A stretch of DNA of 64,000 nt from positions 2,418,001 through 2,482,000 of the forward strand of contig NZ_CP098518.1 in assembly GCF_023703795.1 (NCBI RefSeq), in the 5' to 3' direction. The stretch comes from Haloplanus sp. HW8-1 (lineage in GTDB: Archaea; Halobacteriota; Halobacteria; Halobacteriales; Haloferacaceae). Shown piece by piece: positions 26,935-57,477 of this stretch (position 1 is its first letter; every line of letters begins with the position of its first letter). Both the position numbers and the translations under genes were made by a program. The notes beneath the pieces are model-generated. The model searched no databases. It had not been told where the DNA came from and worked only from the letters and a program-made list of their open reading frames with translations.

Positions 26935-27303
26935 ATGAGTACACACTCAGAATCGAGTGATACGAAATCGACGTCGGTCGTCACACCGAGCCAGTCACAG
27001 GAAACGCTCATTTCCATGTCAAACCTCCTTGGACGCAAGTGGCACTTGATCATCCTCCACCAGCTACTGACGGAGGGAGCGATGGGATTCGGCGAACTGA
27101 AAGGAGAGATCGATCACATATCGTCGAAGGTCCTGTCGGACAGCCTCGATCGACTCGAGACGGAACACGAACTCGTCGAACGCCACATCGTGAGCAAAAA
27201 GCCGGTGCGCGTCGAGTACGCGGTGACGGACCGCGGTCGTGACTTCGCCCCCATCGTCACTCGTATCCACGAGTGGGGCGTCGAACACGTCGTGAGAGAG
27301 TAG
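26935..27303 (+). CDS. HxlR-family transcriptional regulator
   Basis: A 122-residue winged-helix protein: LLGRKWHLIILHQLLTEGAM, FGELKGEIDHISSKVLSDSL and the wing VRVEYAVTDRGRDF are the HxlR signature segments. It has no cysteine, so direct thiol redox sensing is unlikely. It precedes the exported protein at 27458 by 154 bases on the same strand, and a second HxlR gene follows that. Target inferred from adjacency. Confidence 0.88.
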   Translation: MSTHSESSDTKSTSVVTPSQSQETLISMSNLLGRKWHLIILHQLLTEGAMGFGELKGEIDHISSKVLSDSLDRLETEHELVERHIVSKKPVRVEYAVTDRGRDFAPIVTRIHEWGVEHVVRE

Positions 27304-28449: not shown

Positions 28450-28839
28450 ATGAGCGACGATACTGAAGCGGACGCTGCCACCCAGCTCGAAGTGTGGTGT
28501 GCCGGCGAGGACTGGTGCCCGGTCACGACGACAGCGTCACTCATCGGCAAGAAGTGGCACCCCGTGATCATTCACCGACTCCTCGAACAGGGACCGAGCG
28601 GGTTCAACGAACTCAAAACGTATGTCGACGGGATTTCGAGCAAAGTCCTCTCGAGTAGTCTCGACGACCTCGAGGAGAAGCAGATCGTCGACCGCGAGAT
28701 CATCAGCGAAAAACCCGTGCGGGTGCAGTACTCGCTCACCGAACACGGGCAGTCGCTCGAACCGGTGATATTTTCGATGCGTGACTGGGGTCTCGAACAT
28801 CTCACGGAACCCGACGAAGACGAGTCGTCGGTCGCGTAG
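28450..28839 (+). CDS. HxlR-family transcriptional regulator with N-terminal cysteines
   Basis: A 129-residue winged-helix protein with LIGKKWHPVIIHRLLEQGPS, FNELKTYVDGISSKVLSSSL and PVRVQYSLTEHGQSLEPV. Unlike the HxlR at 26935 it has two N-terminal cysteines (WCAGEDWCPV), which suits thiol or metal sensing as in other Cys-containing HxlR proteins. It is followed by the cupredoxin-fusion gene and a redoxin, which are likely targets. Confidence 0.88.
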   Translation: MSDDTEADAATQLEVWCAGEDWCPVTTTASLIGKKWHPVIIHRLLEQGPSGFNELKTYVDGISSKVLSSSLDDLEEKQIVDREIISEKPVRVQYSLTEHGQSLEPVIFSMRDWGLEHLTEPDEDESSVA

Positions 28840-52930: not shown

Positions 52931-54439
52931 TTACTCGACGCAGCAACTCATCGTCGACGTGTCCCTGCGGAACGCCTGGCAGGCGTGTTTGAACGCCTCG
53001 GAGAACGTCGGGAAGGGGTGGACGGTGTCGATGATGTCGTCGATGGTGAGGCCGAATTTCACCGCTAACGTCGCTTCTACGATCAGGTCGGCGGCGCGCG
53101 GGCCGACCATGTGAACGCCGACGATTTCGGCAGTCTCGTGGTGTTTGACGACCTGGACGAGGCCATCCGTGTTCTTGACGGCTTTCGCCCGCGGTACGTC
53201 CTCCATCTGGACGGTCCGGCACGAACAGGTGCCGTGCTCGGCCATGTACTCCGATTCGGTCGTCCCGACTGCGGCGACTTCGGGGCTGGTGAAGACGACT
53301 GCGGGGACCGTATCGTAGTCGATACTGACGCCTTCGCTGCCGAAGGCGTTTTTGACGGCATGGTGGCCTTCCTTGGCGGCAACAGTCTCCAGTTCTGGTT
53401 CGCCGATCACGTCGCCGGCGGCGTACACGTCAGGGTTCGTCGTCTGGAAGTGATCATCGACGTGGATCGTCCCGTCGTCGTTCGTTTCGACTCCCACTGT
53501 TTCGAGGCCGATACCCTCGCTGTTGGGCTGGACGCCGGTCGCGACGAACAGTGCGTCGCCGGTGACCGTCTGCTCGGTGCCGTGGACGATTGTGTCGACG
53601 GCGACGCCCGACTGTGTCGCTTCGACTCCGCCGTCCGTCGCCGGGGCGCGGACGCGCTGGAAGTCGTTACCGGTGATCACCTCGATGCCGTCCTCCTCGA
53701 ACGCACGTTGCATCTCACGTCCGAGTTGCCCCTCCATGCCCGAAAGCACGCGCTCGGAGCGCTGCAGAAGGGTCACGTCGACGCCGACACGGTGGAGGAT
53801 CTGTCCCCACTCGAGCGCGATGTAGCCACCGCCGATGACCACGATGCTCTCTGGAAGATCCCGCTCCTCGAGGATGGTCTCGCTGGTGTAGTAGTCGATC
53901 TCGTCGAGGCCCTCGATGGGCGGTGCCCAGGGTGAACTCCCGGTCGCAATCAGCGCCTTCTCCCCGGTGATGCGCGCACCCTCGTCAGGGCCGTCTACGA
54001 CCTCGATGGTCGTCTCGTCACCGGAACGCGGCGCGTTCCGGTTGCCCGAGGGACTGCGTCCCTCGCTGTCGACCAACTCACCGTACCCCTCGTAGATGTC
54101 GGTCTCGAAGTGTTCGGCGACGTCGACGTAGTTTTGCTGTCGGAACCGCTCGACGATTTCGTCGGTCCTGTCGAGCGCAGCCGCCCAGTCGACGGTCGGT
54201 TTGCCGTCGCTGTACTGGACCGCATCGAACGGGTTCTCCTGTGGTGTGGCTGCCTGCTCGCTCAGCGCGAGGAGATACTTGCTGGGGACACAGCCGACGT
54301 TCACACAGGTACCCCCAATCGGCAGACCCGTGTTTACTATCGCTGTCGAGAGCCCCCGGTCGCTCGCTTCGGTGATAGCGGCGAACGCGGCTGCACCGCC
54401 GCCGAGAATCACGAGATCGTACGAGTAGTCCGCGTCCAT
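52931..54439 (-). CDS. merA: Mercuric reductase MerA (no NmerA domain)
   Basis: A 502-residue disulfide-reductase family enzyme that reduces Hg(II) to Hg(0). FAD site VILGGGAAAFAAITEASDRG, active-site Cys45/Cys50 in GGTCVNVGCVPSK (MerA-type, not the GTCLNRGC form of its window relatives), NADPH site VIGGGYIALEWGQ, and the diagnostic C-terminal vicinal pair Cys499-Cys500 in MSCCVE, which hands mercury to the active site. The N-terminal metallochaperone domain is absent. An insert after GYGELVDSEGRSPSG is haloarchaeal-looking. Divergent from a Cys-rich HxlR gene; no MerR, MerT or MerB was seen. Confidence 0.93.
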   Translation of the reverse strand: MDADYSYDLVILGGGAAAFAAITEASDRGLSTAIVNTGLPIGGTCVNVGCVPSKYLLALSEQAATPQENPFDAVQYSDGKPTVDWAAALDRTDEIVERFRQQNYVDVAEHFETDIYEGYGELVDSEGRSPSGNRNAPRSGDETTIEVVDGPDEGARITGEKALIATGSSPWAPPIEGLDEIDYYTSETILEERDLPESIVVIGGGYIALEWGQILHRVGVDVTLLQRSERVLSGMEGQLGREMQRAFEEDGIEVITGNDFQRVRAPATDGGVEATQSGVAVDTIVHGTEQTVTGDALFVATGVQPNSEGIGLETVGVETNDDGTIHVDDHFQTTNPDVYAAGDVIGEPELETVAAKEGHHAVKNAFGSEGVSIDYDTVPAVVFTSPEVAAVGTTESEYMAEHGTCSCRTVQMEDVPRAKAVKNTDGLVQVVKHHETAEIVGVHMVGPRAADLIVEATLAVKFGLTIDDIIDTVHPFPTFSEAFKHACQAFRRDTSTMSCCVE

Positions 54440-54463
54440 CTTAACGAGTATTCAGAACGCGAA

Positions 54464-54520
54464 GTAATTATACTGTAGAGTCCAAAGCTATGGAGTAAGT
54501 TGGAGGTTCCAAAGCTATGG
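54464..54520 (+). promoter_or_regulatory. Promoter with 13-bp direct repeat ahead of the HxlR gene
   Basis: TCCAAAGCTATGG occurs at 54481-54493 and 54508-54520, 27 bases apart; the second copy overlaps the HxlR start codon and the first ends in ATG GAG TAA. An AT-rich taattatactg at 54464 is a plausible TATA box. The repeats may be operators for the regulator in the 77-base merA-hxlR gap. Confidence 0.5.
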
Positions 54521-54861
54521 CAGATACCACCTCAGACGCGCCTGCCTGCGATATCGATGGAACGTGCTACTGTCCGCTCACGGGAGTTATCGACACGCTG
54601 AGCCGGAAATACGCGATGCAACTCGTCAGCATCATTGGCGCCCACGACTCGCTACGGTTTGCAGAAATCGAGGAACACCTTCCGACAGCGAGTACCTCGA
54701 CCATCTCGAAACGGCTCGACGAATTCGAGGAGGCCGGACTAATCTCTCGAACCCAGTATAACGAGATTCCGCCCCGTGTCGAGTACTCGCTGACCGATGA
54801 TGGGGACGAGGTGAGAACCCGTCTGGAACCACTGTTAGAGTGGGCTTCGGCGGCCGAGTGA
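54517..54861 (+). CDS. HxlR-family regulator with Cys-rich N-terminus
   Basis: A 114-residue winged-helix protein. The N-terminus PACDIDGTCYCPLTGVID clusters three Cys within ten residues, suited to binding Hg(II) or another thiophilic metal. The HxlR core follows: LSRKYAMQLVSIIGAHDSLR, FAEIEEHLPTASTSTISKRL, PPRVEYSLTDDGDEV. Divergent from merA across 77 bases, so it is the best candidate for the mer regulator in the absence of MerR. Metal sensing is inferred. Confidence 0.88.
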   Translation: MADTTSDAPACDIDGTCYCPLTGVIDTLSRKYAMQLVSIIGAHDSLRFAEIEEHLPTASTSTISKRLDEFEEAGLISRTQYNEIPPRVEYSLTDDGDEVRTRLEPLLEWASAAE

Positions 54862-54921: not shown

Positions 54922-55707
54922 CTAGATCAGTCCCAGTCCACCGGCGACCAGACGAAACCCCACAGCCGTGAGGAGACCGAAGACGACGAGTCTGCGAGAC
55001 CGCTCGCTGGCCGTGACCCGAAGGCGCTTCCCAACTGTGACTCCGATGGCGGCCGGGACGGCAGCGACGACGGACGCGAACAGGACAGTTCGGCTCGGAT
55101 ACAGCCCGAACAGACTCGCGACACCAACGCGAATCCCATTGATTCCCAAGAATACGAGCGCGACGACGCCGACGAATAGTCCGTGTGAGAGGTCGAAGCT
55201 CCGAAGATGCGCGATGAGTTGTACCCCGACGTTCGTCCCGCCGAACAACAGCCCCGAGATGCCGCCGACACCGACCATTCCAACTCGCGTTCGTGCGAAC
55301 GTACCGATCCACCCCGACGACCACTCCGGGAGGGGGAGCCGTCGCTGAGCGGTCGCGACGAATCCGAGCGTCAATACTCCGAGACCGACACGCAGTGGGG
55401 CGGTCGGAACACTACTGAGGACGGCCATCCCGACAACCGTACCGACCAGCGCTGCACCGATGAGTGGTCCAAACCGTCGACTACAGGTTCGAAGCTCTTC
55501 ACGGGAGAGATCACTGACCAGCGAGAGATTCACTGCGAGAATCGGGACGATCATGAACACGACGGCTGTCGCCGGGTCGATCACCGTTGCGAGCGCCATC
55601 GTCCCGACGAGGGCGAATCCGAAGCCAGCCAGTCCATTCGTCGTTCCGGCGATCAGAATAACGAGCGTCATCAGCACGACTGTTGGCCCCCCAATGGCTG
55701 CAATCAT
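54922..55707 (-). CDS. TauE/SafE (TSUP) family membrane permease
   Basis: A 261-residue protein with about eight hydrophobic helices. The paired half-repeats GTTNGLAGFGFALVGTMALA near residue 22 and GISGLLFGGTNVGVQLIAHL near residue 150 are typical of TSUP anion exporters. Its ATG overlaps the stop of the M20 peptidase gene (ATGA), so the two are translationally coupled. The substrate may be a product of the peptidase or of the sulfur chemistry nearby; unproven. Confidence 0.85.
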   Translation of the reverse strand: MIAAIGGPTVVLMTLVILIAGTTNGLAGFGFALVGTMALATVIDPATAVVFMIVPILAVNLSLVSDLSREELRTCSRRFGPLIGAALVGTVVGMAVLSSVPTAPLRVGLGVLTLGFVATAQRRLPLPEWSSGWIGTFARTRVGMVGVGGISGLLFGGTNVGVQLIAHLRSFDLSHGLFVGVVALVFLGINGIRVGVASLFGLYPSRTVLFASVVAAVPAAIGVTVGKRLRVTASERSRRLVVFGLLTAVGFRLVAGGLGLI

Positions 55708-56972
55708 CCATCGACGCCCGTGAGTCGCTCGTAGAGGACCGGGAGTGTTCCGTAGCTGATGGCGTTTCGGGTCAGGGCCTCGGTCGTCGTGTACTCGTCA
55801 GTTCCGTGCGCTGTCTGGGTACCGAAGCCGAACTCGACCGTTGGAATCCCCTCATGTCGAAGCACCTTGGCGTCGCCGCCGCCGGTCGCGCTCCGTCGGT
55901 AGACCCGGTCGTCGACGACGTGCTCGGCCGCCTGCGCGCTCGCTTCGACGATGGGACTCCCCAGCGGTTCGTACGACCCACGGGTCCACGAGATGTCCGC
56001 AATCTCGATCCCATCCATCCCGGTCAAGCAGTTCCGTATCCCGCCGAGTGCCTCTCTGGTATCGACACCGGCGGTCAATCGAATATCGACTCTTGCACAC
56101 GCCGAGGCCGGCACCGTGTTGATCGCCGTTCCGCCTTCGATGATGCCGAGATTGATCGTCGGGTACCGGTACAGGCTGCAGGCAGCCACGGCCCCGGCCT
56201 CCGGCTCGTAGAAGTCGACGGACTCCTCGATAATGTCGTCCATCGATGAATCGACCGACAGTTTCTGCTGTCCGAAGTCGTCTCGCAGCTGCTCGATTGC
56301 ATCCGTTAGTCGGTCAACCGCGTTCTCCCCGATCATCGGCCGTGAGCCGTGGGCAGCAATGCCTGACGCTTCGAGCGTCAGCCAGATGTTCCCACGATCG
56401 GCAACCGAGACGGAATGTCGCCCGTTCCGAGCGGTGGTTTCGCCAACGACACAGGCGTCGGGATCGAATTCGGACGTCTCTAGCAGCGTCGTGAGGCCGG
56501 CGTCACCGCCGGTCTCCTCGTCGCTGACGAACGCAAACTGGAGCGTTACTGGTGGTTCGGGTTCGGTGCGAGCGTAAGCGAGAGCGACCTGCACCATCGC
56601 AGCGACGGCTCCCTTCATATCGGTCGCTCCACGTCCGTAGATGCGCTCGTCGTCTCGCTCACCCAGTGGATCGTACGCCCAACCGCTCTCGTCGAACGGG
56701 ACGGTGTCGAGATGGCCGTTGAAACACAGCGTGCGGTCGCCCCGGCCGGGAAGTGTGGCGACGAGATTCGGCTTTTCCGGGTCGACTTCGAAGCGCTCGA
56801 CCGACAACGCCGGTTCGTCGAGCGTGTCTTCGAGCCACTCGACGACGTCGACGGTTCGCCCGGGTGGATTCTGTGTCTCGTAGCCGACGAGCGTCTCCGT
56901 GAACTCGAACAGCTCTGAACGATTGGCGGAGAGGTACTCGGCGACAGGTGCGGGCAGATCAGACGTATCCAT
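55704..56972 (-). CDS. M20-family metallopeptidase (ArgE/DapE/CPG2-like)
   Basis: A 422-residue zinc amidohydrolase. Metal ligands lie in FNGHLDTVPF near residue 85, GRGATDMKGAVAAMV near residue 114 and SDEETGGDAGL near residue 150, with the C-terminal His in TQTAHGTDEYTT near residue 395. The lid domain lies between. Members hydrolyse N-acyl amino acids or small peptides. It sits 19 bases after the DHFR gene and overlaps the TauE gene. Exact substrate unknown. Confidence 0.88.
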   Translation of the reverse strand: MDTSDLPAPVAEYLSANRSELFEFTETLVGYETQNPPGRTVDVVEWLEDTLDEPALSVERFEVDPEKPNLVATLPGRGDRTLCFNGHLDTVPFDESGWAYDPLGERDDERIYGRGATDMKGAVAAMVQVALAYARTEPEPPVTLQFAFVSDEETGGDAGLTTLLETSEFDPDACVVGETTARNGRHSVSVADRGNIWLTLEASGIAAHGSRPMIGENAVDRLTDAIEQLRDDFGQQKLSVDSSMDDIIEESVDFYEPEAGAVAACSLYRYPTINLGIIEGGTAINTVPASACARVDIRLTAGVDTREALGGIRNCLTGMDGIEIADISWTRGSYEPLGSPIVEASAQAAEHVVDDRVYRRSATGGGDAKVLRHEGIPTVEFGFGTQTAHGTDEYTTTEALTRNAISYGTLPVLYERLTGVDG

Positions 56973-56991
56973 AGTTGGTCAGAGACACTAG

Positions 56992-57477
56992 TTAGCTCGA
57001 TTCTCTCACCCACTCTTCGAGGGTGAAGTCGTCGTAGGGGGTGCGATCGACGACGGTCCACTCATTCGCATCCCATTCCGGGAAGTAGGTGTCACCGTCG
57101 TATTCACCCGGTATCCGGCTGAGCACCATCCGGTCGACGACGGACTGGAACAGGTCGTAGATGCCTGCCCCACCGATGACGTAGGCACGGTCGGCTCCGA
57201 ACGATTCGACGACTTCGACCGCGTCGTCAAGTCCCCCTGCGTGGTGTGCTGATTCGACATCGTATTCGGACACTGACCGGCTCAGCACGACCTGTGCTGT
57301 TCCGGGAAGGTCCTCCCGCATCGAGTCGAACGTTCGACGACCGAGGATTACGGGCCAGGCTGCGATCCGGTTTCGGTACTGTCGTTTGTCGGCCGGGATG
57401 CTCGGCCACGGTAGCTCACCGTTTCGACCGATCACGCCGTTCTCTGCCACCGCAGCGACGCTGATTAGCTCCGTCAT
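56992..57477 (-). CDS. folA: Dihydrofolate reductase
   Basis: A 161-residue DHFR, complete. The start [20 protein letters not shown] and [20 protein letters not shown] hold the Met20-type loop and the catalytic acid region; [12 protein letters not shown] and [12 protein letters not shown] are the NADPH-binding motifs; [11 protein letters not shown] is the C-terminal family segment. Reduces dihydrofolate with NADPH. Second gene of a minus-strand operon after a small protein (nine-base gap). Confidence 0.92.

Follow-up and report, generated by a model that had tools for sequence, protein, structure and literature searches.

An HxlR-family regulator divergent from merA as a candidate mercury sensor of haloarchaea

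Mercury resistance is a textbook example of a metal switch, in which the regulator is MerR in bacteria and an ArsR-type protein in Sulfolobus, and the Hg(II) site of MerR uses three cysteines as ligands. To our knowledge, the HxlR family is not known for metal sensing. In the published Sulfolobus and Streptomyces cases, as presented in PMC3466566, ArsR-type regulators repress mer when Hg is absent, and arsR or merR genes are described there as the mer regulators. For Bacillus subtilis HxlR, the account given in PMC7835342 is that Cys11 reacts with the inducer and that Lys13 is its partner in the formaldehyde methylene bridge. Few haloarchaeal mer genes had been annotated in 2013, according to PMC3600143. 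In the titles and abstract openings of the open-access papers that our searches listed, no proposal of an HxlR regulator for merA was found, and HxlR is not mentioned in PMC8261052.

The locus analyzed here belongs to Haloplanus sp. HW8-1, whose genome comprises 3.84 Mb in 3 contigs, and was taken from a stretch of 64,000 nucleotides (C1:2418001-2482000) that we call the window. The features discussed below are collected in Table 1. The window MerA exceeds the cut-off of the TIGR02053 equivalog profile (511.5 against 454.45 bits) and carries CVNVGC, the active-site cysteine pair, as well as a C-terminal SCCVE. Of its 52 unique relatives having a complete C-terminus, all keep the terminal CC and 50 show C-V-N-x-G-C. 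As the original prediction held, merA is divergent from an HxlR gene, with an intergenic stretch of 77 bp (54440-54516), and the product of that gene has CDIDGTCYC near its N-terminus, at residues 11-19. Its assignment to HxlR is clear by Pfam (65.2 bits against a cut-off of 20.8), HxlR-type chains such as 7kd3, 7bze and 3df8 stand on top in a PDB sequence search, and Pfam lists six families for the protein, with neither MerR nor HTH_5/ArsR among them. The absence of MerR, also part of that prediction, extends to the whole genome, where MerR_1 (PF13411) had zero matches in a search that was positive in 12 of 14 control genomes. The GGAGG motif, conserved in the alignment of unique intergenic regions, is likely the Shine-Dalgarno sequence of hxlR. 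Two more HxlR genes, out of six HxlR matches in the genome, are found in the window at 27025-27294 and 28540-28806. Adjoining hxlR, positions 54922-57477 hold genes for a TauE-like transporter, an M20 peptidase and DHFR; this block is again beside merA/hxlR in loci L075 and L080 and partly in L045 and L051, and so the surroundings of the pair also move or persist as a unit.

Table 1. Coordinates of the genes and candidate regulatory elements in the window.
Feature	Positions	Strand	Remark
merA, mercury(II) reductase without N-terminal HMA domain	52931-54439	-	TIGR02053 equivalog
Candidate operator dyad O1, TATTCA-GAACG-CGAAGT	54449-54465		between TATA and merA start; left arm eroded in the window
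TATA-like core AATTATAC	54466-54473		between O1 and O2; TTATAC for hxlR, GTATAA for merA
Candidate operator dyad O2, ACTGTA-GAGTC-CAAAGC	54472-54488		exactly 23 bp from O1
13-bp direct repeat TCCAAAGCTATGG, copy 1	54481-54493	+	right arm of O2 and neighbouring bases
Candidate operator dyad O3, AGTTGG-AGGTTC-CAAAGC	54498-54515		ends right before hxlR ATG
GGAGG, likely Shine-Dalgarno of hxlR	54502-54506	+	10 nt before ATG
13-bp direct repeat TCCAAAGCTATGG, copy 2	54508-54520	+	right arm of O3 and neighbouring bases
HxlR-family regulator, 114 aa, proposed mercury sensor	54517-54861	+	PF01638
Codons for CDIDGTCYC (Cys11, Cys17, Cys19), proposed Hg(II) ligands	54547-54573	+	putative metal binding

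Searches with the window HxlR and the window MerA were performed in 391 genomes that sample the class (E<=1e-15 for HxlR rows and E<=1e-110 for MerA rows), and neighbourhood ORFs were picked by a length-and-acidity score made for this analysis. The HxlR rows fell into two groups, 56 near ones with at least 73% identity and 74 distant ones with at most 64%, and the MerA search gave 60 rows in 55 genomes. A near HxlR was found divergent from merA in 55 of the 60 MerA matches, and the gap measured 77-94 bp in 54 of these 55, the sole exception (604 bp) being a MerA match that begins at residue 179. Counted per genome, both genes were present in 51, merA only in 4, hxlR only in 1 and neither in 335, figures that do not represent independent events because the rows are related by descent and transfer. 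The five MerA rows without a near HxlR belong to G070, G384, G375, G156 and, for one of its two, G323, and one near HxlR row, G298:C2, is without MerA. Regarding the predicted HxlR-type rather than MerR-type switch, it is the choice of partner that gains from these numbers, HxlR replacing MerR beside merA in 55 of 60 matches; the switching itself is a matter of probability, to which we return below.

A separate scan of named genomes yielded 43 loci, 42 of them with merA or a merA fragment divergent from hxlR; L083 retains merA residues 1-56 only. The one exception, L055, has hxlR without merA on a contig filed under a Mollicutes MAG; its neighbours are of haloarchaeal type, and it is probably a mis-binned haloarchaeal contig. 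On PLSDB plasmids hxlR is annotated as 'helix-turn-helix domain-containing protein' or similar, for example where it adjoins merA on pNG600 of Haloarcula marismortui. Two of the five merA loci without HxlR have an ArsR-like gene in the same divergent slot. That of L126 scores above the ArsR cut-off (39.9 bits) and reaches 77.7 bits with an NCBIfam metalloregulator profile, and that of L122 is slightly below the ArsR cut-off (20.9 against 22). Both ArsR-linked MerAs fall within the haloarchaeal MerA clade, in a tree without resolution of which regulator came first. Judged by sequence, the slot divergent from merA is a regulator slot, and the ArsR-like genes place another metalloregulator family there.

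The original prediction drew attention to a 13-bp direct repeat with a period of 27 bp. It is the longest direct repeat in 54440-54525 and lies beyond chance, since 0 of 5000 mononucleotide shuffles reach 13 bp (maximum 11, mean 5.7); its second copy does overlap the start codon, containing the hxlR ATG at 54517-54519. The TATA-like hexamer TTATAC at 54468-54473 would put the hxlR transcription start near 54495, between the two copies, in line with the original prediction. As the main operator unit the repeat was rejected, because only 4 of the 55 unique relatives' upstream regions retain the exact 13-mer at +27 while the dyads survive; 52 of the 55 do retain a shorter core, [CT]RAAG-N22-[ACT]RAAG. 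The repeat proposed as a switch element is thus real, yet the candidate operator consists of three tandem dyads, and the repeat represents the right arms of two of them. A palindrome centred within each 13-mer (CCAWAGCTWTGG), noticed by eye in the window, was dropped as relatives do not keep it.

The dyad pattern, ACTTYG-N5-CRAAGT, was read from a comparison of the merA-linked alignment with merB-linked regions; O1 of the window departs from it by 3 mismatches. The three tandem dyads are spaced by 23 and 26 bp (0, +23, +49), with the TATA-like core in the 6 bp that separate O1 from O2. When 54 unique intergenic regions are aligned, a block around TTATACT stands out as conserved. The core, whose distance is about 26 nt to the ATG of merA and 43 nt to that of hxlR, apparently serves both genes. 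With at most 2 mismatches, the dyad (O1 or O2) is present in 51 of the 55 unique upstream regions that are merA-linked and in 30 of the 50 that belong to other HxlR genes; the maximum in 200 shuffles was 4 per set. Of the 51 merA-linked regions with a first site, 32 have a partner dyad at +23 and 10 have one at -23; of the 30 other regions with a first site, 25 have the partner at +23, over a background of 0.02-0.14%. If 6 mismatches in total are allowed, 52 of the 55 merA-linked regions and 29 of the 50 others contain the O1 and O2 pair, compared with shuffle means of 0.02 and 0. At +26 from O2, a third dyad, ACTTCG-N6-CRAAGC, with at most 4 mismatches follows in 51 of 52 merA-linked regions and in 23 of 29 others, and its counts are nearly 0 at all other offsets tested. 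All these counts come from the very sequences that supplied the patterns, in rows related by transfer, a circumstance that the offset, shuffle and reversed-pattern controls answer only partly. The conserved 17-bp dyads are probably the DNA that HxlR binds.

The core running from the right arm of O1 through TATA to O2, RAAGTNNTTATACTNNNRAGTCCRAAG, was then used to scan the 391 genomes with at most 2 mismatches. It occurs at 103 places in 89 genomes, and the reversed pattern gave 0. Of these places, 94 are within 200 bp of a subfamily HxlR, all 94 in the orientation of that gene, 7 are at merB (one in each of 7 genomes with convergent hxlR and merB), 1 precedes a small protein with a conserved CC, and 1, with 2 mismatches, is probably due to chance. 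The core accompanies 54 of the 56 near HxlR rows, G339:C34 and G298:C2 being without it, and 40 of the 74 distant rows; all five merA genes without a near HxlR are also without the operator. Because hxlR and merB are convergent in the seven genomes, merB needs its own promoter with an operator copy there, and since the pattern derives from hxlR upstream sequences, the seven merB promoters constitute an independent confirmation. Nearly everything recovered by the scan is hxlR accompanied by merA, merB or the small CC protein, which does not amount to a redox regulon. A scan of the source genome with the short motif GAGTCCRAAGC at 1 mismatch was not informative, giving 91+91 hits compared with 35+40 for the control.

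The wider subfamily leads to organomercury lyase, the product of merB. A MerB domain (PF03243) lies within 2 kb of 38 of the 74 distant HxlRs, in divergent (30), convergent (7) or tandem (1) orientation, and 38 of 67 MerB places are involved in this proximity; the other 36 rows have no MerB within 2 kb. Among the distant HxlRs the operator goes with 32 of the 38 near merB and with 10 of the 36 that are not. Pfam confirms MerB in L114, L116, L117, L118 and L123, and RefSeq names the MerB gene of Halorussus halophilus merB; the lyase activity of the haloarchaeal proteins is itself putative, because two of them, though above the Pfam cut-off, score 43 and 57 against NCBIfam MerB cut-offs of 193. 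In a quick HxlR tree based on few columns, the merA-linked genes (54 rows, joined by 2 rows that lack merA) make up a single starred group (95*) and the merB-linked ones, labelled for the 16 such rows among the fetched loci and not for all 38, fall outside. The proximity of the wider HxlR subfamily to merB is supported by sequence as independent evidence for mercury. The prediction of a mercury switch of HxlR type has therefore gained a conserved candidate operator, copies of it at merB promoters and a subfamily beside merB.

These data also bear on the possibility that HxlR controls only itself or an unrelated function and that the pair is a hitchhiking block moved on plasmids. Many copies of the pair are indeed on plasmid-sized contigs with high mutual identity, so the rows are not independent. 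However, the pair and its 17-bp dyads stay together amid flanking genes that change from one locus to the next. An HxlR of this type and the same operator also recur with merB in separate lineages, where some merB copies carry an operator themselves, and the operator is missing wherever merA has no near HxlR. We thus regard such hitchhiking as very improbable.

The small CC protein (about 112 aa, with ELQCCAF or ERQCCSF) was observed at 16 loci, including L121, L117 and L168, divergent from subfamily HxlRs or after merB and often beside an SBF-type transporter. It has zero matches in Pfam and NCBIfam and none that is meaningful in the PDB. One relative (32%) is located in Peribacillus, in a plasmid region with merA and merR1, and another (30%) inside a MerR-family protein of Rhodococcus; the CC protein is possibly a new mercury-handling protein. 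At L168 (G313:C8) a perfect operator core at 2604-2630 stands before the CC gene and no subfamily HxlR was found beside it; control in trans by the HxlR of G313:C16 may apply. Furthermore, subfamily HxlRs at L110:2384-4696 and L112:360-2601 have a MerA-like/lipoamide-dehydrogenase-like oxidoreductase close by (with GGTCLNRGC at L110, where a zf_CopZ protein is present as well), and a second HxlR-controlled detoxification pair is possible.

Concerning the N-terminal cysteines, C-x5-C-x-CP is present in 56 of 56 unique merA-clade HxlRs, 55 of which have exactly three cysteines. Cys19, which aligns with a cysteine of 7kd3, is kept in all 52 operator-bearing merA-clade rows. Among 31 operator-bearing HxlRs outside the merA clade, Cys17 is kept in 29, Cys19 in 30 and Cys11 in 5; in operator-less HxlRs outside the clade, several of them beside ABC transporters, Cys17 and Cys19 are kept in 13 and 12 of 19, respectively. 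CYC was rejected as a mercury signature, and the cysteines alone do not specify mercury, because CxC also occurs in related HxlRs that lie next to ABC transporters without the operator. The CxC element fits a soft-metal or thiol-reactive site and is not diagnostic. An AlphaFold model built on a shallow alignment (pLDDT 71.7, N-terminus below 50) is too weak to place the cysteines.

Such a site could also suit a general sensor of thiols, electrophiles or oxidants like Bacillus YodB, CatR and HxlR, for which mercury would perhaps be a trigger only through thiol attack and merA one target among detoxifying oxidoreductases. In HxlR/DUF24 regulators the position of Cys19 is that of the conserved cysteine which reacts, HxlRs with CxC are found beside non-mer genes too, and a peroxiredoxin gene, a hint of a link to thiol stress, follows hxlR in 16 of the 43 named merA loci (e.g., L056:6447-7001; also pNG600). 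However, the places recovered by the operator scan are hard to reconcile with so broad a role, Lys13, required for formaldehyde sensing by HxlR, is replaced by Leu (Leu21) in 52 of 52 operator-bearing merA-clade rows, and two extra invariant cysteines are unusual for a one-cysteine redox switch. A general thiol sensor is in our opinion unlikely.

It appears somewhat better than an even bet that HxlR is a repressor of merA and of itself, and a mercury sensor that would release its operator upon binding Hg(II). The HxlR dimer would occupy the three tandem dyads around the TATA box apparently common to merA and hxlR, and both genes would be held down. Hg(II) would be caught by Cys11, Cys17 and Cys19, the capture would shift the N-terminal arm and the DNA-reading domains, and the freed sites would allow merA to be transcribed along with fresh regulator. 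The TATA is separated from the merA start by O1, and from the hxlR start by O2 and O3; repression of both genes is the simplest reading. In its wider form the proposal describes a haloarchaeal mercury regulon (merA, merB and the small CC protein, often beside an SBF-family transporter) under a soft-metal-sensing branch of HxlR, where a single bidirectional TATA would be clamped by tandem dyads, one binding event silencing both genes and mercury opening both; here we see the chances as evenly balanced.

Derepression is nevertheless not assured, because B. subtilis HxlR is an activator. The main alternative to repression keeps the sensor and the sites, with Hg-bound HxlR at O2 and O3, upstream of the merA TATA/BRE, recruiting basal factors and activating merA while repressing its own gene. 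Seen from merA, O2 and O3 are upstream; seen from hxlR, they are downstream of its TATA. These positions suit merA activation together with autorepression, and B. subtilis HxlR gains DNA affinity and activates upon modification of its N-terminal cysteine, according to what PMC7835342 reports on it. However, O1 between TATA and the merA start is in a repressing position, and the ArsR-type regulators, which share the slot at two loci, act as repressors without Hg in the Sulfolobus and Streptomyces cases of PMC3466566. We therefore consider activation unlikely, yet worth keeping in view beside the preferred reading, repression relieved by mercury.

If the preferred reading is true, a third regulator family would be involved in mercury sensing, with likely the first metal sensor in the HxlR family, and a defined archaeal operator would mark mercury genes genome by genome. 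The locus would also offer a compact model, with two divergent genes and one common TATA box.

Among the described systems most similar to this one, the formaldehyde-responsive HxlR of B. subtilis (DUF24/MarR-type; PDB 7bze/7bzd) belongs to the same Pfam family and shares the winged-helix fold by sequence; counted from the conserved Lys (K31 here, K23 there), Cys19 corresponds to HxlR Cys11. Unlike in B. subtilis, Lys13 is replaced by Leu21, so that the Cys11-Lys13 pair is not found, C-x5-C-x-C brings in two additional cysteines, merA and merB are the partner genes, and the host is an archaeon. The HxlR/DUF24 redox sensors YodB, CatR and QsrR likewise have a conserved N-terminal cysteine, the sensing residue in those systems as PMC6798810 presents them, and the palindromes of 16-20 bp given there for the MarR superfamily are matched by dyads of 17 bp here. 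However, these proteins sense quinones or diamide and control reductases and dioxygenases, whereas three tandem dyads surround a TATA box at mercury genes in our case. Bacterial MerR, like the role proposed for this HxlR, is an Hg(II) sensor divergent from mer genes, but it belongs to an unrelated family with no MerR_1 match in the source genome. Finally, the ArsR-type mer regulators (Sulfolobus solfataricus merR, Streptomyces lividans and the two haloarchaeal loci) are winged-helix proteins in the same divergent slot, and differ in family, the window protein being HxlR by Pfam and not HTH_5/ArsR.
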